A stretch of 20,297 nt of DNA, taken from the IMG/VR virus record IMGVR_UViG_3300047367_000240, positions 1 through 20,297 of that record, one strand, 5' to 3'. Numbering within the stretch: the first letter of the stretch is position 1; each line of letters opens with the position of its first letter. The DNA comes from a virus. A program made the position numbers and the translations under genes. The notes under the pieces were generated by a model, which made no database searches, had not been told where the DNA came from, and saw only the letters and a program-made list of their open reading frames with translations. Below, piece after piece: positions 4,000 through 12,131 of this stretch.

Positions 4000-4205
4000 T
4001 GAGTGACAACACCGTAAAAATTATTAGCACTGGGATCAAAGTTGTAACTGTTGGCACGCAGGGGCCGAGGGGAATTACTGGCACCCTTGGCGATGCTACA
4101 GACGTAACTATGAGCAACCTACAGGCAGGCGACACAATCACGTATGACGGGTCTGCCTTTGTAAACACACCCCAAACAAATCTTACCGATGGAGGTAATT
4201 TCTGA
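3999..4205 (+). CDS. Short fibre protein with collagen-like triplets
   Basis: This gene encodes 68 residues, beginning in the previous stop codon (TAATG) and ending in the start codon of the next gene. Residues of about 19-31 read GTQ-GPR-GIT-GTL-G, four collagen-like Gly-X-Y triplets, which usually promote trimerisation in phage fibres. The second half (LGDATDVTMSNLQ, then GDTITYDGSAFVN) is a module seen in many phage fibres. The protein ends NLTDGGNF, similar to the LDGGTF end of the next fibre protein. It is likely a small trimeric fibre subunit or a detached N-terminal fibre piece. GAGG (3985-3988) lies upstream. Confidence 0.6.
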   Translation: MSDNTVKIISTGIKVVTVGTQGPRGITGTLGDATDVTMSNLQAGDTITYDGSAFVNTPQTNLTDGGNF

Positions 4206-5446
4206 TGGCGAACACCATACGTATTAAGCGGCGCGCGACAGGCAGTGCGGGTGCACCCACCAGCCTCCAAAACGCAGAACTAGCATTTAACGAAGTAGAC
4301 AATACCCTTTACTACGGCAAGGGCACCGGTGGCGCAGGCGGCACAGCAACAACTGTTGAGCCTATTGGTGGAACGGGCACCTTTGTTGACAAAACAAGCA
4401 CGCAAACCATAAGCGGTGCAAAGACATTTTCTAGCACTATTACAGGTAGCGTAAGTGGCAATGCAGCTACAGCAGATGCCCTTAGCAGCGGGTTTAACAT
4501 AGACCTAACAGGCGATGCCACGGGCACTGTTACCGGTGTGGATGGCAGCAGCAACGTAAGCATAACAGTCACAGTGGCCGATGATAGCCACAACCATCTT
4601 GCATCTAACATTGATGATTTTGATACACAGGTTCGCACCAACAGGCTAGACCAGTTGGCAACGCCTACAGGCGCTGTGGCCATGGGTGGCCAAAAATTAA
4701 GCGGCCTTGGCACCCCCGTTAATGACGGTGATGCTGCAAATAAGGGTTATGTAGATGGCGTGAAGCAGGCGCTGGATATTAAGGAAAGCGTGAAGGTAGC
4801 AACCACCGCAAACATTACCCTAAGCGGCACACAAACTATTGACGGGCAAGCTGTATCAGCCGGTGATCGCGTACTGGTAAAAGACCAGACAGATGCAGCA
4901 ACCAATGGCATTTACGTTTGTGCAGCCGGTGGTTGGGCGCGCGCCGATGACTTTGGCACTACGGTTGATGCAAGCACTGGTAGCTTTGCATTTGTTGAAG
5001 CCGGTACGGTTAACGCAGGAAACGGTTTTGTTCTTACCACTACAGGCCACACGCTTGGCTCTAACAACTTGGTTTTCACCCAGTTTAGTGGTGCAGGCCA
5101 GATAACGGCAGGTGGCGGCCTTACTAAAAGCGGAAACACTATCCAAGCCGTTGGCACTGCCGACCAAATAACGGTTGCAGCAGATGCTATTAGTATTGCA
5201 ACTACCTACGCTGGCCAAAGCAGTATTACCACCCTTGGCACTATTGCTACAGGCACATGGCAGGCTACGGCAGTTGGTGCAGCATATGGCGGCACTGGCA
5301 AAACTACGCTTACAAGCAACGGCATTTTGTACGGCAACGGCACCGGTGCAGTAGGCGTAACAGCAGCCGGTGCTAATAGCGCAATACTGCAAAGCAACAA
5401 CGGAACCCCAACGTGGGTAACGACCCTTGATGGTGGTACGTTCTAA
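4205..5446 (+). CDS. Tail fibre protein
   Basis: This gene encodes 413 residues. Residues 1-45 (IRIKRRATGSAGAPTSLQNA, then AELAFNEVDNTLYYG) look like the N-terminal fold found in Mtd-like receptor proteins and many fibres. The middle has fibre hallmarks: TQTISGAKTFSSTITGS, GNAATADAL, LTGDATGTVTG, and the GAVAMGGQKLSGLGTP and NDGDAANKGYVDG segments. A conserved block DRVLVKDQTDAATNGIYV (about 222-239) follows. The C-terminus ends TWVTTLDGGTF. Such proteins form trimeric fibres that reach host receptors. GGAGG (4191-4195) lies nine bases before the ATG. The DNA also contains long open frames on the opposite strand, explained by its biased composition. Confidence 0.85.
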   Translation: MANTIRIKRRATGSAGAPTSLQNAELAFNEVDNTLYYGKGTGGAGGTATTVEPIGGTGTFVDKTSTQTISGAKTFSSTITGSVSGNAATADALSSGFNIDLTGDATGTVTGVDGSSNVSITVTVADDSHNHLASNIDDFDTQVRTNRLDQLATPTGAVAMGGQKLSGLGTPVNDGDAANKGYVDGVKQALDIKESVKVATTANITLSGTQTIDGQAVSAGDRVLVKDQTDAATNGIYVCAAGGWARADDFGTTVDASTGSFAFVEAGTVNAGNGFVLTTTGHTLGSNNLVFTQFSGAGQITAGGGLTKSGNTIQAVGTADQITVAADAISIATTYAGQSSITTLGTIATGTWQATAVGAAYGGTGKTTLTSNGILYGNGTGAVGVTAAGANSAILQSNNGTPTWVTTLDGGTF

Positions 5447-5457
5447 CGGAGGCTTAA

Positions 5458-5712
5458 ATGTCTACAACTATCAAGTTAAAGCGGAACACATCTAGCGGCA
5501 ATACCCCCGATGCGTCTGATTTGGCGCTTGGCGAATTAGCTATTAATACGGCTGATGGGAAGGTGTTTGCCAAAAAAGGTGATAACTCCGTGGTGAACGT
5601 AGCCACTAGCGCAAACCTGTCTGAATTAGATAACGACATGTGGGAGGTGACTGCAACAACACCTACCAGCGCAACGGGCAAGCCTAACGGTTACGTTTGG
5701 TATGTCGTTTAA
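5458..5712 (+). CDS. Small fibre-type protein with an Mtd-like N-terminal module
   Basis: This gene encodes 84 residues. Its first 50 residues (IKLKRNTSSGNTPDASDLA, then LGELAINTADGKVFAKKG) align by eye with the N-terminus of the 4205-5446 fibre, so it appears to be a single-domain paralogue. It ends with ATGKPNGYVWYVV. The ATG has GGAGG five bases upstream (5448-5452), and the gene sits 11 bp after the fibre stop and 18 bp before the Thr/Ser-rich protein. It may be a fibre base or adaptor subunit; the function is inferred from similarity and position. Confidence 0.65.
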   Translation: MSTTIKLKRNTSSGNTPDASDLALGELAINTADGKVFAKKGDNSVVNVATSANLSELDNDMWEVTATTPTSATGKPNGYVWYVV

Positions 5713-5730: not shown

Positions 5731-8700
5731 GTGGCAATACATGTGGAGTACGGCTCACAGGTAAGGGAGCCAGAACAGATAATAGTTAAAGGTAACGCGG
5801 GTACACTGCGGGCCGTTAATTATGTGCTGGTTAACAACAGCGGCGTGCTGACAACAGCTTGGAACGCTATCTATACAACAAGCCGCACCACGCAGGTAAC
5901 AACTAGCTATACGACTACCTTTGCTACCGATAAAACCACTACGTTTGACACCACGTTTAATACAACGACATCCTTTGCAACGTTGTATGGCACTACGCGC
6001 AGCACTACAACATCGTACGATACAAGTCGATCAACCAGCAACGCTACCGGTACGTCTTACCTAACGGATTACCAAACATCGCGCAGCACTACTACAGCCT
6101 ATACAACAAGCTTTGCAACCGCATCTAGCACTAGCCATGAGACAACCACTACGTATACCACTACGTTTGGTACTGCTAGTAACACAAGCCGTACAACAAG
6201 CCATAGCACTACTACAACCTATGGCACGCTTAGCGGTACAAGCAGAACTACAACTACTAGTTATACCACTAACTTTGGTACGGCCAGCACCACTAGTAGG
6301 GCTACAACAACAACGTTTACCACTAGTTATGGCACGCTTAGCACCACTAGCCAAAGCACAACGACTAGTTATACAACTACGTTTGGTACAGCCAGCACCA
6401 CTAGTAATACAACTGAAACATCGTTTACTACAACGTTTGGCACAAGCAATTCTACCAGCAATGCTACTACCACAACGTTTACCACAACATATGGTACGGC
6501 GAGTAGCACTAACCGTGGCACTACCACGACGTACGCAACTACGTACCAAACTAGTCGCAGCACAAACCAAGGTACTACTACTAGCTACGCCACGCTATCG
6601 TCAACATCACGGGCTACAACAACAGCGTTTGCAACTGCATATGTTACGAGCCGAGGTACAAGCAAAAGTACAACCACGACATTTGGCACGCTGTCCGGTA
6701 CTAGCCGTGCCACAACGACAGCGTTTAGTACCAATTATGGTACTAGCAAAAGCACAACCACTGCATTTACCACAGCATTTGCAACTGGCACTAGCCGGAG
6801 CACCACCACGGCCTATAATACGGCAAGGGATACCGGCACTAGCCGTTCTACGACCACTGCTTTTAATACAAATTACGGTACTAGTAATAGTACAACTACA
6901 AGCTTTACTACTACGTTTGCAACCGGTACTAGCAAAAGCACAACTACTAGCTACACCACTACGTTTGCAACTGGCACTAGCAAGAGTACAACTACTAGCT
7001 ACACTACCTCGTATAATACAAGCAGTGGGACAAGTAAAAGTACCACCACCAGCTTTAACACCACGACTACCTTTGGCACTAGCAGGGCAACCACTACAAG
7101 CTATAACACCAGCCGTGCAACAGGCACCAGTAAGAGCACCACAACGTCCTATACAACTACGTTTGGTACTAGCCGTGGCACAAGCAAAAGTACAACCACC
7201 AGCTATACCACTACGTACAACACTAGCCGTGGCACTAGTAAATCTACTACCACTAGCTATACGACTTCTTACAATACTAGCCGTAGCACAACCAAAAATA
7301 CTAGCTACACGACCACGTATGGAACTAGCCGTACCACAAGCAAAAGCACTAACAAAACTACGACCTTTAACACGACAGTAACCAGCAGCAGCACTGATGG
7401 CCCACGCCAAACAACGGGCACTTATTACATCGTGTTCAACCTGTTTTTTTGGGCGGGGGTCAACGTTGGTACCACCACTGGAAACACGCTCACTGTGGGC
7501 GGTGCAACTTATACTAGGGGAGCCCTTTATTATTCGGCTTACAACCCCTACATCGGTGCGGTTTTTTATTACCAAATTTCTAAAACAACAACGTCTTCAT
7601 CGACCCAAAGCACCAGCCGTAGTACAGCTAAAACTACGTCTTACACGACTAGTTACAACACCAGCCGCAGCACTTCAAAAGTTACGGGTTATACAACTGT
7701 ATACGGGACATCACGCGGTACCAGTAAAAGCACTACGACAAGCTATACAACCACGTATGCGACTAGTCACGGCACAAGCAAGTCGACTACTACAAGCTAT
7801 ACGACCAGCTTTAATACATCGAGCGGTACTAGTAAAAGCACTACTACAAGCTATAACACCACCACTACGTTTGGGACTAGCCATAGCACCACCACAAGCT
7901 ACAACACCAGCCGAGCGACAGGCACAAGCAGGGCCACCACTACCTCGTATACCACTACGTTTGGGACTTCACGCGGTACAAGCAAGTCAACCACTACGTC
8001 CTTCAATACCAACACATCGCGCGGTACAAGCAGGGCAACTACCACGGCGTTTAACACCAATACGTCACGCGGAACGACTAGGGCAACCACCACTAGCTAT
8101 AACACTTTAAGCGGTACTAGCCGTGCGACTACAACCTCGTTTGACACAGCCACAACTTTTGGCACCAGCAAAAGCACTACCACCGCTTTTGATACGACTA
8201 CAAGCCGTGGCACCAGTCGCGCTACTACTACAAGCTATAACACGCTAAGCGGTACAAGCCGCAGCACCACAACTGCGTTTAACACCACTTACCAAACCAG
8301 TAAGGCTACCACTACTAGCTATACAACAAGCTTTAATACGGACAGCACTACTAGCCGCTCGACTACCACTACGTTTAATACAAACTACGTGACTAGCCAT
8401 AGCACTACGACAACGTTTACGACTACTTTTGGCACGGCAAGCACCACAAGCCGTACAACGACAACTACGTTTAACACTACGTACCAGACGAGCAGGAGCA
8501 CCAGCAAGTCCACCACGACCACGTTTACTACTTCGTACAATACGAGCCGTGGCACCAGTAAGGATACAACCACCACGTTTACAACTACGTACCAAACAAG
8601 CCGTGGCACTAGCAATGCTACTACCACAGCATTCAGTACAACGTATGTGACGAGCCGCAGTACCGATAAAAGTACAACAACGGCGTTTGCCACGACCTAT

Positions 8701-9201
8701 GCCACCAGTCGCGGCACCAGCAACGATACAACAACTTCGTTTGATACCACGTACCAGACAAGCAACGCTACAAACACAGCATACGGCACCACATTTAGCA
8801 CCACGTACCAAACTAGCCGTACTACTGATAACGGCACTACCACAACGTTTGATACTGACTACCAGACGAGCCGTGGTACGAGCCACGCAACAGCCACATC
8901 GTTTGCAACAGATAGCACCACAAGCCGAAGCACTACCACAACGTTTGATACAACATTTGGTACAAGCAACGCCACTACAACGGCCTTTAACACAAACAGC
9001 ACAACCATACGCCAAACGTCTACAGGCACGCAGACAAGCAGGCTTACTGCCGTTGACACAGGCCGCAGCACGCTAACAACGATTAACACCGATACTGTTG
9101 TCTATGAGCGCGCAACTGGTACAGGGCAGACCACAGAAGTAAGCAGTGGCAGTGCAGCATCAAGCCGTTATTGGGACGGCTCACAATGGGTAGAAGAATA
9201 A
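5731..9201 (+). CDS. Giant Thr/Ser-rich repeat tail fibre protein
   Basis: This gene encodes 1156 residues and is probably a long tail fibre or appendage shaft. Residues 1-50 form a non-repetitive head (AIHVEYGSQVREPEQIIVKG). From residue 78 to about 550 and from about 628 to 1095 the protein is an array of units such as TTTSYTTTFGTSRGTSKS. These have alternating small residues (Ser/Thr/Gly) and Tyr/Phe/Arg/Lys spaced by Thr. Residues 551-618 are a unique hydrophobic island. The tail end (about 1096-1156) is non-repetitive and closes with RYWDGSQWVEE. Translation starts at GTG 5731 with AGGG seven bases upstream; no in-frame ATG is nearby. The alternating pattern predicts continuous beta structure, probably trimeric. 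Long open frames in other phases result from the repeat composition. The virion role is inferred from the neighbouring fibre genes. Confidence 0.8.
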   Translation: MAIHVEYGSQVREPEQIIVKGNAGTLRAVNYVLVNNSGVLTTAWNAIYTTSRTTQVTTSYTTTFATDKTTTFDTTFNTTTSFATLYGTTRSTTTSYDTSRSTSNATGTSYLTDYQTSRSTTTAYTTSFATASSTSHETTTTYTTTFGTASNTSRTTSHSTTTTYGTLSGTSRTTTTSYTTNFGTASTTSRATTTTFTTSYGTLSTTSQSTTTSYTTTFGTASTTSNTTETSFTTTFGTSNSTSNATTTTFTTTYGTASSTNRGTTTTYATTYQTSRSTNQGTTTSYATLSSTSRATTTAFATAYVTSRGTSKSTTTTFGTLSGTSRATTTAFSTNYGTSKSTTTAFTTAFATGTSRSTTTAYNTARDTGTSRSTTTAFNTNYGTSNSTTTSFTTTFATGTSKSTTTSYTTTFATGTSKSTTTSYTTSYNTSSGTSKSTTTSFNTTTTFGTSRATTTSYNTSRATGTSKSTTTSYTTTFGTSRGTSKSTTTSYTTTYNTSRGTSKSTTTSYTTSYNTSRSTTKNTSYTTTYGTSRTTSKSTNKTTTFNTTVTSSSTDGPRQTTGTYYIVFNLFFWAGVNVGTTTGNTLTVGGATYTRGALYYSAYNPYIGAVFYYQISKTTTSSSTQSTSRSTAKTTSYTTSYNTSRSTSKVTGYTTVYGTSRGTSKSTTTSYTTTYATSHGTSKSTTTSYTTSFNTSSGTSKSTTTSYNTTTTFGTSHSTTTSYNTSRATGTSRATTTSYTTTFGTSRGTSKSTTTSFNTNTSRGTSRATTTAFNTNTSRGTTRATTTSYNTLSGTSRATTTSFDTATTFGTSKSTTTAFDTTTSRGTSRATTTSYNTLSGTSRSTTTAFNTTYQTSKATTTSYTTSFNTDSTTSRSTTTTFNTNYVTSHSTTTTFTTTFGTASTTSRTTTTTFNTTYQTSRSTSKSTTTTFTTSYNTSRGTSKDTTTTFTTTYQTSRGTSNATTTAFSTTYVTSRSTDKSTTTAFATTYATSRGTSNDTTTSFDTTYQTSNATNTAYGTTFSTTYQTSRTTDNGTTTTFDTDYQTSRGTSHATATSFATDSTTSRSTTTTFDTTFGTSNATTTAFNTNSTTIRQTSTGTQTSRLTAVDTGRSTLTTINTDTVVYERATGTGQTTEVSSGSAASSRYWDGSQWVEE
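5962..7377 (+). repeat. First Thr/Ser repeat array (27 regular units plus an irregular end)
   Basis: Anchoring on T-x-T-[S/T/A]-[Y/F], residues 78-523 divide into 27 consecutive units: 8 of 14 residues, 6 of 16, 12 of 18 and one of 22. They are followed by an irregular 27-residue end. No regular unit has an odd length. At DNA level the repeats are diverged, rich in ACN (Thr) and AGY/TCN (Ser) codons. Confidence 0.85.
7381..7584 (+). other. Unique hydrophobic island domain inside the repeat fibre
   Basis: Residues about 551-618 interrupt the array. The segment includes DGPRQTTGTYYIVFNLFFW, then AGVNVGTTTGNTLTVGG, ATYTRGALYYSAYNPYIG and AVFYYQISK. It is rich in aromatic and aliphatic residues and poor in the repeat motif, and lies near the middle of the protein. 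It may be a globular knob or hinge. Confidence 0.7.
7612..9015 (+). repeat. Second Thr/Ser repeat array (irregular start plus 26 regular units)
   Basis: After a transitional segment (residues 628-667), residues 668-1095 divide into 26 consecutive units: 8 of 14 residues, 6 of 16, 11 of 18 and one of 22, again all even. A 64-residue block at 694-757 repeats residues 428-491 with 58 identities, showing an ancient internal duplication around the island. Confidence 0.85.
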
Positions 9202-9347
9202 TGAGCGAAGTTGAAGACATGCAGCACCGGTTGGAAAGCACCTTGGATATTGTGCTAGATCATTTCCGTGAAACCGAGGAAAGGATAGCGGCCTTGGAAG
9301 CCGAAATTGAGGGGTTAAAAAATGGGATTCAAGAAATCAGCAATTAA
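9201..9347 (+). CDS. Small coiled-coil protein, possible fibre assembly factor
   Basis: This 48-residue ORF starts in the stop codon of the giant fibre (TAATG at 9199-9203) and ends 26 bases inside the next gene in another frame. The sequence begins MSEVEDMQHRLESTLDIVLD. Leu/Ile/Val residues recur at heptad spacing through LDHFRETEERIAALEAEIEG, so almost the whole protein is a predicted acidic coiled coil. The tight coupling to the fibre gene on one side and overlap with the next gene on the other argue that it is a real gene. Small coiled-coil proteins after fibre genes can be assembly chaperones or trimerisation factors; that role is inferred. No database family is recognised. Confidence 0.6.
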   Translation: MSEVEDMQHRLESTLDIVLDHFRETEERIAALEAEIEGLKNGIQEISN

Positions 9348-10203
9348 TGAAGAACTAGGCAACGCTGCCACACACTTTTTTAAAAGCGGTAACGTAATAC
9401 GAAGCAGTGCAAACAAATCACTGGACGATGTGCGCCAAGTGTTGCCCGCAAATGGCCCAAACGGTACCCGCGTTGAATATGATGTTTGGTACGACTTGGG
9501 CTGTACGGATAGGGTGCATGGGTACGTTTACACGGACATAATGACGCAATTCCTGTATTTGCGTGCAGCCGGTGCACATTGGAGCCATAAGGTTATGGCT
9601 GAGGCTGCTGATGGGCCAGCCACGGCTGATGGGCAGCGCATATTTGAAAGTATTGCTAACCTAGCGGGGGATAAATACATGCTCCGCAAAAGCCACGTAA
9701 AAGCCCCATTCGTTATTTTCTTAGCTGGCACCAACATAATTGAAAAAGCTACTGATTGGGGCAAAGTAAGGAATGCTGTTGACCAAGGCGCAAAGCTTAA
9801 GTGCCACCCGCTTACCGCACCGCCTTTGCTTGCATCACTTAAAAACCGTTTTGGCACCGACAATATTTTAGACAAAAAGTTATCCGGTCACGAACTACTT
9901 AACCAAGCCAGTATTGTGGGTTGCACAGACAACAGCGAGATGGGTTTAGTAGCATTAGCCAAAGGTAAAACTGTTTACCGGTTTGGCCCCCAGCACACCC
10001 AATTCACCTATAGCGCGATCTACAATACTGTTTGGCAAGGTGGTCAACCAAGTACGAAAAGGCTGGTGGCCATACTTAGCAGCCCCAACACAGGACTTAT
10101 CCCAACCATAGAAACTAGCTACTCAGCCCAAGACCGTATAAGCCGTTTTTTCGCCTATTTCAGCAAGGTACCGCATGTCGCACCCAAACATACTAATCCT
10201 TGA
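9322..10203 (+). CDS. Glycosyltransferase-like protein (GT-B/capsule-synthesis type)
   Basis: This gene encodes 293 residues. The C-terminal half resembles the donor-binding domain of GT-B enzymes of the capsule-synthesis (KpsC/KpsS) and polysialyltransferase-like type. It has KCHP (160-163), then a helix, ELLNQASIVGCTDNSEMGLV (191-210) and ALAKGKTVYRFG (211-222). These match the usual 'KxHP ... a..V.t.NS..g.eAl..GKpV...G' pattern, but with E after NS in place of T. The N-terminal half contains a Trp/Tyr-rich segment and VKAPFVIFLAGT (126-137). GAGGGG (9309-9314) lies seven bases before the ATG. It is not a usual tail-morphogenesis gene; next to a Thr/Ser-rich fibre it could modify the fibre, or alternatively the host envelope. 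The assignment is from motif reading only. Confidence 0.5.
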   Translation: MGFKKSAINEELGNAATHFFKSGNVIRSSANKSLDDVRQVLPANGPNGTRVEYDVWYDLGCTDRVHGYVYTDIMTQFLYLRAAGAHWSHKVMAEAADGPATADGQRIFESIANLAGDKYMLRKSHVKAPFVIFLAGTNIIEKATDWGKVRNAVDQGAKLKCHPLTAPPLLASLKNRFGTDNILDKKLSGHELLNQASIVGCTDNSEMGLVALAKGKTVYRFGPQHTQFTYSAIYNTVWQGGQPSTKRLVAILSSPNTGLIPTIETSYSAQDRISRFFAYFSKVPHVAPKHTNP

Positions 10204-10888
10204 AGAAAACGACCTAGCGGCCATGACATTGGCCAGTATTAAGGCGTATGCACCAAAGTCAAAGGTAGCAGTGGTTTCCTGTGATGGCGAAGGGTCTAGG
10301 ATACGTACAGCTTTACAATGCACAAATAAGGTGACTCTATGCGTACAAAGTGGTGTAATACTGCAATCTGGGATTATATATATGCCGCCAATGGCACGGT
10401 TATCAAGTTACAGTATTACTATTAGCCGTGCGCACGTTTTTATAGACCACCCAAGGCAAAGCCATATTTACGGCTTAATGGGGCTGGAGGCACACAAGGG
10501 GGTAATGGATACATCGGTGTTTTTTATAAACCCAGAAAGGTGGCCAGAAACACCATTGGTTGATAGGGGTGCGATGCGGGACAAGAAAAAACTTGTTATG
10601 CCGCGCTATATGAACCACAAAGCAGACGCGGCACTGGAGGCCGTTAGCGCATGGGGAGCATTGCAATACGGCATGCTAGGCCATGGCGCTGGAATACTAA
10701 ATTACACCCAGCATTATTTACGCGGGTATGCCACGCCAAACGAAATGTACGGCTACCCTTTAGAACTGGCATTGCCGTTTATAGATGATTTACAGCCAAC
10801 CATGAAAGATAGGGTTTGGCGGTTAGGCTCAAAAGCCAAAACAGTAGGCGCGCTCTTAAGAACTGGCCTGCAAACTTTTTATGAATAA
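10175..10888 (+). CDS. Possible GT-A-like glycosyltransferase
   Basis: This gene encodes 237 residues and overlaps the preceding gene by 29 bases; AAGG (10165-10168) lies six bases before the ATG. The N-terminus NILILEENDLAAMTLASIKA, followed by KVAVVSCDGEGSRI, has the beta-alpha-beta pattern of GT-A nucleotide-sugar-binding domains. DTSVFFINPERWPE (112-125) recalls the 'sGvmlin..kW' segment of GT8-like enzymes. A clear DxD metal-binding motif is not visible at the expected place, so it may be divergent, inactive or not a glycosyltransferase. The C-terminal half has AWGALQYGMLGHGAGILNY. The overlap with the GT-B-like gene suggests a common function. Confidence 0.35.
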   Translation: MSHPNILILEENDLAAMTLASIKAYAPKSKVAVVSCDGEGSRIRTALQCTNKVTLCVQSGVILQSGIIYMPPMARLSSYSITISRAHVFIDHPRQSHIYGLMGLEAHKGVMDTSVFFINPERWPETPLVDRGAMRDKKKLVMPRYMNHKADAALEAVSAWGALQYGMLGHGAGILNYTQHYLRGYATPNEMYGYPLELALPFIDDLQPTMKDRVWRLGSKAKTVGALLRTGLQTFYE

Positions 10889-10912
10889 CATTGCGACCAT
10901 AGGAGGACGGGA

Positions 10913-11557
10913 ATGGAACAGGTACATGAATCGTTGCATAACGAACTAAACTACTTAGCTATGATAAATAGCCTGTTAGAAAACCATGTTGATAGAAGCC
11001 ACGATGATGGTAACTCTATTGCTGGGTTGGGGGTGCAGGTAGGGTTTGATTTAGGGAAAAGCTTTCCGTCCCTTACTTGCCACCCAGTTGATGTAGAGGA
11101 AATGGCAGAGCGCGCCATAATGTTTATGAAAGCAAACAAAAGGGCCATTGCCGCCTTGCGCACACAGCTTGCCGGTAACCCCGATGGGCTTAGCTGCCCC
11201 ATAACCGTAAAGCATAGCCATGTTATAGCCGTGCAGGCGATCCAGCGCGGTAATGTAATGGACATAAACGTGCAGGCGGGCAACGTAGACCTGCTTAATT
11301 ACTTACCATGTTTAATGGCAGAGATGGGCATGTTTGCCTTTATGTTTGCCGCAGGCAGCGGCTGCTTAGCGCAAAACCTTAGCATGCAGTTTGCCACCAT
11401 ATGCATGCCTAAAGAAGCCATGGATGATGCAAGGGTGTTGCTGAACACTGAAATTTCACCGCCCAACGTAATTAGTTTACGTGAGGGGGCAAAACTAACA
11501 AACATCAAGCCCGCCGATATAGCTATTACACCTTGGGCTGATTGGGCTGCCGCATAG
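10913..11557 (+). CDS. Thymidylate-synthase-fold protein lacking catalytic residues
   Basis: This gene encodes 214 residues (ThyA is about 264). The N-terminus aligns by eye with ThyA: ELNYLAMINSLLENHVDRS (11-29), DDGNSIAGLGVQVGFDL (31-47) and KSFPSLT (49-55) correspond to the YL..L..iL..G....DRTG.g..s.FG.q..f.L...FPLLT region. In the second half HSHVIAVQAIQRGNVMDINV (101-120) matches the strands after the active-site Cys. However, the PCH cysteine position is S102, the QRS motif is QAG (121-123), the PFN Asn is replaced by Leu (PCL, 132-134), and the DxHxY motif is absent. It is therefore unlikely to methylate dUMP. AGGAGG (10901-10906) gives a strong start. Its role beside glycosyltransferase-like genes is unknown. 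Confidence 0.45.
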   Translation: MEQVHESLHNELNYLAMINSLLENHVDRSHDDGNSIAGLGVQVGFDLGKSFPSLTCHPVDVEEMAERAIMFMKANKRAIAALRTQLAGNPDGLSCPITVKHSHVIAVQAIQRGNVMDINVQAGNVDLLNYLPCLMAEMGMFAFMFAAGSGCLAQNLSMQFATICMPKEAMDDARVLLNTEISPPNVISLREGAKLTNIKPADIAITPWADWAAA

Positions 11558-11567
11558 GGTTAGGGTT

Positions 11568-12131
11568 ATGATTACTTTTTCCACTGTAACTGCAATAGAC
11601 GATACTGAATTTGATCGTATATATGCTGATTCATTAGCAGGCGTAGAAAACGGCTGGCCTTGGCATTGGTGGCCAGACCACACTACGCCCGAGCAGAAAA
11701 AAGCGTTTATACGCAGCCAGTATGACCTGTTTATTGATTCTGATTTAGCTGGCTCATTTGTTTTTTCTGTATGCGAGGATGATAGGCTTTTAGGCTTGTA
11801 TGCAGCTACGCTAAACGATGGCGTTATGGAAGTAAGCCTAAGCCTATTTGGTTTGGACATTACCGCATCTAAGGCTTGGGCATATGGTAATGAGCAGTCA
11901 GTGCAAGCGCGTAATACTTACTGGGAAAGCTTGGGTATAAGTGGTTGGGTGTTTTCTATACCTGATTTGCAGTCTGACTTGCGCGCGTTTATCAGCACAG
12001 CAAGTGGGACGCTAATGGGCACGGTAAACAGCACGCAAGCCGAAACCCACGATACGCCCCAAGCTGTGATTGACGAAAGGGGAACCCCTGACAGCTTTGG
12101 CATAGTAAACTATGCACTTGTAGCCGCCTAA
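11568..12131 (+). CDS. Unknown protein, possible GNAT-like acetyltransferase
   Basis: This gene encodes 187 residues. It begins ITFSTVTAIDDTEFDRIYAD and has a Trp-rich WPWHWWPDHTTPEQKKAF segment (about 30-47). FVFSVCEDDRLLGLYAATL and a following strand (VMEVSLSLFG), a helix and YWESLGISGWVFSIP are compatible with a GNAT fold, but the acetyl-CoA loop (R/QxxGxG/A) is not evident. It follows the TS-like gene by 10 bp, with AGGGTTAGGG just upstream of the ATG, and is the last gene before a control region. The function is uncertain; an N-acetyl- or acyl-transferase would fit a sugar-modification cassette. Confidence 0.3.
   Translation: MITFSTVTAIDDTEFDRIYADSLAGVENGWPWHWWPDHTTPEQKKAFIRSQYDLFIDSDLAGSFVFSVCEDDRLLGLYAATLNDGVMEVSLSLFGLDITASKAWAYGNEQSVQARNTYWESLGISGWVFSIPDLQSDLRAFISTASGTLMGTVNSTQAETHDTPQAVIDERGTPDSFGIVNYALVAA

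Follow-up and report, generated by a model that had tools for sequence, protein, structure and literature searches.

In known phage fibres, the Peptidase_S74 domain aids trimer formation. The D11 needle of T4 gp37 consists of a stem (residues 882-931 and 960-1009) and, between its two arms, a receptor-contacting tip (932-959) (PMC6957217), and it is slender, measuring about 150 x 25 Å (PMC3004832). In S16-like phages, polyglycine adhesins set the host range (PMC6851490). Here we describe a gene in the IMG/VR virus record IMGVR_UViG_3300047367_000240 (positions 1 to 20,297; this whole stretch of 20,297 nucleotides is called the window) that very probably encodes a long phage adhesion fibre, its chain folded into a giant antiparallel beta hairpin that bears a tip at the distal end. 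The gene (5731..9201, plus strand, as are all window features below) has a GTG start and encodes 1156 amino acids, of which 39% are Thr and 17% Ser. Out-and-back topology, with T4 gp37 as the precedent, and phage fibre function are already known; judged from databases and the open-access literature, what is new is a residue-level code that pairs strands hundreds of residues long and belongs to no known family. No description of such arrays was found in the open-access literature, a coverage outside which subscription papers and preprints lie.

The preliminary description of this gene had divided residues 78-523 and 668-1095 into 53 units of 14, 16, 18 or 22 residues, none of odd length, and this parse was reproduced. 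An automated parse for T.T[STA][YF] returned 56 starts with even gaps throughout (18 residues 22 times, 14 residues 15 times, 16 residues nine times, 22 residues twice, three 16s split into 6+10, and 162 residues across the central domain). Read outward from the central domain, the unit lengths are identical in both directions, with a mirror centre at residue 587-588. Between the halves (residues 78-506 and 668-1082), 26 pairs of starts satisfy s1+s2=1174 (506+668, 488+686, ... 92+1082), covering 26 of the 28 starts in each half and leaving 78, 444, 710 and 806 unpaired, whereas permuting the unit order 20,000 times gave a mean of 9.4 pairs and a maximum of 19. The symmetry centre falls in the sole non-array stretch, residues 556-620. 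That one half arose from the other by direct duplication was rejected, as the best direct (non-mirror) offset matches only 13 starts. A palindrome in the DNA was likewise rejected as the cause of the mirror order; the gene contains 0 inverted repeats, and the symmetry exists at the protein level only.

The mirror order is accompanied by a pairing code. At p1+p2=1176, the 477 facing residue pairs include 168 T:T, 108 small:small and 72 aromatic:cation pairs, with 0 aromatic:aromatic, 0 cation:cation, 0 T:aromatic and 0 T:cation pairs; when the register sum is shifted by 2 to 10, the code is lost and the classes are mixed. A local hairpin scan recovered arms at indices 67-560 and 626-1119, that is, 494 + 494 residues around a 65-residue tip, with a score of 387 against 42-51 for a unit-shuffle null; its pairs comprise 73 aromatic:cation, 0 aromatic:aromatic, 1 cation:cation and 173 T:T. 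In the unit TTTSYTTTFGTSRGTSKS, the Tyr stands opposite a Lys of the mirror unit and the Phe opposite an Arg; a unit of this kind thus complements itself and could be added to either arm. With array halves that complement each other in mirror register, the chain most likely runs out and back, forming a giant antiparallel beta hairpin. The single continuous shaft strand of the preliminary description is thus not supported, and the tetrad that it proposed (large-small-Thr-small) captured the alternation but only half of the story, since the large residues are of aromatic and cationic kinds that face each other.

Relatives were sought with DNA patterns. With the full-length protein, tblastn found no match in phages, a result that probably stems from the masking of the query as low-complexity sequence. 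The pattern scan of IMG/VR yielded at least 119 stretches with at least 130 open reading frames (ORFs) carrying arrays of at least 100 residues. L001 overlaps the window gene at 100% identity, and L002 is an 82% relative. Among the matches listed, 93 non-redundant arrays were tested, some of them ended by a contig edge, and a self-hairpin (a score more than 1.5-fold that of the best among three unit-shuffled nulls) was found in at least 63. One of them, L056, has 739 pairs, with 89 aromatic:cation, 0 same-class and 5 T:large. In a residue-pair table of 41 strong hairpins (14,340 pairs), the enriched pairs, as observed/expected, are F:R (856/159), F:K (255/58), Y:R (341/85), Y:K (136/31) and T:T (3616/2222), and the depleted ones T:F (56/968), T:R (31/731) and R:R (3/60). 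Pairs that lie outside the register criterion also depart from expectation (Y:H 131/10, F:H 9/19, F:Q 166/30, Y:I 98/12), as does N:S on the other face (708/458), which is likewise outside the criterion. In cross-validation, the register of the inner half equalled the full register in 35 of the 41 hairpins, and in the held-out outer half aromatic:cation made up 96% of aromatic/cation pairs versus 44% at shifted registers, and T:T 90% versus 48%.

Even unit lengths follow because extended strands alternate strictly in and out. A two-face alternation hidden Markov model, trained on the 93 arrays and then run with slips allowed, found 0 slips over the 1015 array residues of the window ORF. Face A of the model is composed of T (58%), F (12%), R (9%), Y (7%) and K (4%), and face B of T (27%), S (26%), N (14%) and A (10%), which together with the absence of slips bears out the small/large alternation described earlier. 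The extension of the even rule to homologues proved very strong although not absolute, with 146 slips in 62,047 array residues family-wide, most of them at recurrent motifs, possibly a regular beta bulge, where the alternation shifts by one residue in a few sub-lineages. The motif TNNTG|AHTNNT produces odd units of 19 residues in L112, L118 and L013, and others are TTD|xVIVST (L113), ALx|AVNT (L033, L128 and L036) and ST|FVRNTI (L035 and L095). Among orthologous arrays aligned by exact DNA anchors, 126 of 138 indels are even and 12 odd (related pairs being non-independent), and several of the odd ones span the tip; the claim that insertions and deletions survive only if they keep the alternation agrees with this count. 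No family in Pfam or PHROGs covers the window array, and because no known repeat family matches it, a previously unnamed fibrous fold was a fair reading.

If the arms must pair, arrays without a partner in the same protein should find one elsewhere, and this prediction held. At ten loci where two array genes are neighbours, their products cross-pair in antiparallel orientation well above the null and over up to about 930 residues. In L019 (genes at reverse-complement positions 2048 and 5563), residues 11-942 pair with residues 953-22 at a score of 750, compared with 73-111 for the null and 53 for the parallel orientation. The nine other loci span scores of 170-602 (L053 602, L066 282, L035 281, L089 272, and also L080, L024, L060, L121 and L096). 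Pairs from unrelated loci have a median score of 59, the high scores between different loci being mostly those of orthologues or members of the same subfamily. Parallel pairing between split-gene products was rejected, with scores at the level of the null. Gene 1 of L035, L066 and L089 ends in a Peptidase_S74 (PF13884) chaperone domain and gene 2 is the return arm, while gene 1 of L019 and of L087 ends in a Hint/intein-like domain (L019:5267-5809 and L087:493-1161), a weak match below the Pfam cut-off. These terminal domains occupy the tip position of the one-gene hairpins, and the Hint/intein-like domain at that end suggests self-cleavage at the tip.

The same constraints are reflected in how the arrays change. 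In a hairpin, indels would have to be even to keep the faces, and matched at the mirror position on the other arm to keep the register. From L003 to L006, each arm gains 54 residues, both at about 100 residues from the centre, and matched changes per arm separate L108 from L040 (+44), L124 from L027 (-32) and L123 from L082 (-20). The central domains range from 5 to more than 200 residues across hairpins. The tip of L003 has 27 amino acids, whereas L006 and L007, which are 86-88% identical, have at that place a Gly_rich_2 domain some 200 residues long; as read from the sequences, tips are exchanged between close relatives. In L003, L005, L006 and L007, the T4-like protein of 2004 amino acids runs on past the first hairpin (about 970 residues); a second hairpin with arms of 207 residues and an 8-residue turn is present in L003, and only a weak one in L007.

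The proposed fibre can be followed along the chain. The N-terminal non-array module (residues 1-61, 5731..5913, beginning MAIHVEYGSQVREPEQIIVKGNAGTLRAVNYVLVNNSGVL) would fix the fibre to the virion. A strand of about 494 residues (outgoing arm, residues 62-555, 5914..7395), a Thr lattice with aromatic and cationic residues, would then lead out to the tip at the exact midpoint (residues 556-620, 7396..7590), where p1+p2=1176 places the centre of symmetry at p=588. From there a second strand of about 494 residues (returning arm, residues 621-1114, 7591..9072) would run back in fixed register, the mirror relation to the outgoing arm comprising the 26 start pairs and 477 residue pairs. One face of the ribbon would carry the code, with Thr against Thr and Phe or Tyr against Arg, Lys or His, and the other the small residues, probably packing against further copies. 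A trimer is plausible, in which three hairpins would form a six-stranded shaft like the T4 gp37 stem. At about 3 Å per residue, a value taken from T4 gp37 (50-residue arms in a needle of about 150 Å), the shaft would be roughly 150 nm long. The C-terminal module (9073..9201), which ends in TEVSSGSAASSRYWDGSQWVEE, would sit on the virion side, next to the N-terminal module; its YWDGSQW-type C terminus is common to many hairpin ORFs, and it has a DUF2510-like WDG match below the Pfam cut-off. Short modules akin to the N-terminal one, of the type VNDGGTLRxI..VNYVxVNNGG, stand before many other arrays, and the N part has a median of 51 amino acids in 24 complete simple hairpins.

The tip is likely the distal adhesin and receptor-binding part. 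Its domain is found also at the tips of L081, L051, L078, L126, L062, L002 and the SAR92 prophage L142, with W, Y, G and Y as invariant residues. No family match was obtained for the tip, its profile found nothing in the PDB at E<=1, the whole protein found nothing there at E<=10 (phmmer), and Foldseek found nothing significant in the PDB. AlphaFold2 supported a compact tip, its core having a predicted local distance difference test (pLDDT) score of about 80, flanked on both sides by continuous strands of low confidence.

Several alternatives could account for parts of this pattern. Identical chains could pair head to tail as an antiparallel homodimer, giving a bipolar fibre with the central domain in the middle, and would show the same constant-sum pairing within the sequence. 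In such a dimer, each end of the fibre would bear an N-terminal anchor, whereas in Stenotrophomonas phage DLP6 (AMQ65900.1, L009:5856-9722) the N-terminal part is formed by a baseplate wedge protein (gp7-type) fused to a hairpin array. The split loci, where gene 1 ends in an S74 or Hint domain and gene 2 is the return arm, fit one distal end, and the free variation of the central domains also speaks against a mid-fibre position; we consider the homodimer improbable. A slightly poorer candidate still is the trimeric beta shaft of the preliminary description, or a beta solenoid with the unit as a coil, in which the mirror order would be a by-product of growth. Many phage fibres are trimeric beta shafts, and even unit lengths with in/out alternation would suit such a structure. 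However, a solenoid coil should not range from 14 to 22 residues, growth by direct duplication would leave direct rather than mirror order (13 versus 26 starts), and the strands are complementary at the level of single residues and, where two proteins are involved, in the antiparallel orientation only. A disordered or glycosylated Thr/Ser-rich stalk with a merely compositional pattern is scarcely credible, as its low complexity and the low AlphaFold2 confidence would fit but the 0 slips in 1015 residues, the 26 mirror-matched units and the mirror-matched indels of orthologues would be left without a reason.

Against the hairpin itself, other points have to be weighed. Pairing in sequence fits contacts within and between chains alike. 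The register was picked to maximise the code, a bias against which the cross-validation guards. No significant self-hairpin is seen in about one-third of the arrays; split pairs and truncation at contig ends account for some of them, and the others are unexplained. The hairpins of L128, L045 and L112 are imperfect, with 40-60 T:large pairs each. The AlphaFold2 monomer leaves the arms unresolved (pLDDT 25-60 outside the tip), antiparallel beta strands along the fibre axis being strongly implied by the sequence pairing rather than by the model, and the arms of L102, a short complete relative, are similarly unresolved (pLDDT 33 overall). The best structural neighbour of the tip in BFVD, a gp38-domain protein of Rhizobium phage RL2RES, is weak (E 2.9e-3). 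In addition, the gene belongs to the head/neck region of the genome and not to the tail-tip genes, which makes its place on the virion uncertain.

The window gene precedes the tail genes, with a head-tail adaptor (phrog_477) to one side and a Neck1/tail-completion protein (phrog_169) to the other. Directly upstream of it, a small protein (5458..5712) is similar to the N-terminal part of phage tail-fibre proteins (phrog_29752, phrog_17885 and others, with E values from 5e-10 to 1e-5), preceded by a fibre/head-decoration-like protein (4205..5446; phrog_2647 head decoration, 2e-47; phrog_11518 tail fiber, 5e-29). Downstream, two uncharacterised genes (9322..10203, phrog_26179, and 10175..10888) are co-conserved, having counterparts after the L002 array. 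These two are the first of four uncharacterised genes (9322-12131) that separate the fibre from the neck genes. In the SAR92 clade bacterium H921 (JAOALD010000003.1, a bacterial genome of 2.6 Mb), the prophage-like locus L142 has a hairpin array after genes for a portal, an S78 protease, an HK97-type capsid and a collagen-like fibre. This was the one true array in the scan of bacterial genomes, most other matches being due to chance, and the prophage offers a possible laboratory handle. In the T4-like virus L003, the array stands within the baseplate wedge cluster, with wedge genes adjoining. The T4-superfamily relatives examined for the DLP6 wedge protein, phiM12 and Cr30 among them, lack the array, and no mention of it turned up in a term search of the DLP6 paper. 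A virion appendage seems to be the common denominator, with attachment at the head/neck or at the baseplate differing between groups.

Taken together, it is likely that phages have evolved a residue-level complementarity code by which strands hundreds of residues long recognise one another in a single register, either as an intrachain hairpin or as a heteroduplex of two products, and which evolves by paired mirror insertions of self-complementary units, as a protein counterpart of the nucleic-acid stem-loop. If so, this would be a widespread class of virus fibres with arms of 100 to 800 residues, the fold of which could be read by a simple pairing rule. It would name the tip as the likely receptor-binding domain in viruses whose host-recognition proteins now read 'hypothetical', show a route of tip exchange, and offer a testable code for protein duplexes of great length, two-protein ones among them. 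It also raises the question of how mirror-image insertions arise in pairs.

In comparison with known systems, the window protein shares with T4 gp37 the course of the chain (out, receptor-binding tip, and back) and the equality of the arms (50+50 residues with a 28-residue tip in gp37, 494+494 with a 65-residue tip here), but its arms are about 10 times longer. It has 0 HxH iron motifs, versus seven in gp37 882-1009, and gp37 lacks the Thr/aromatic/cation code (score 16) and has no sequence similarity to the window protein. A Gly_rich_2 domain of the S16 gp38 type occupies the tip in L006, L007 and L097, which are T4-like or related hairpins; the S16-type gp38 is a separate protein that caps the gp37 trimer, whereas in these hairpins the domain is inserted between complementary arms. 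The tip of the window protein is a different domain. Compared with S74-chaperoned fibres, the PF13884 domain is present at the ends of the split arrays L035, L066 and L089 and absent from the window protein. The array of DLP6, an isolated phage, shares the code, with arms of about 283 residues, 36-37 aromatic:cation versus 1-2 aromatic:aromatic pairs and a small central turn. The DLP6 fusion also holds a DUF642-like insert (a weak match), and similar inserts occur in L064, L074 and L105. Where the DLP6 array differs from the window protein is in its fusion with the wedge protein and with a second inserted domain.

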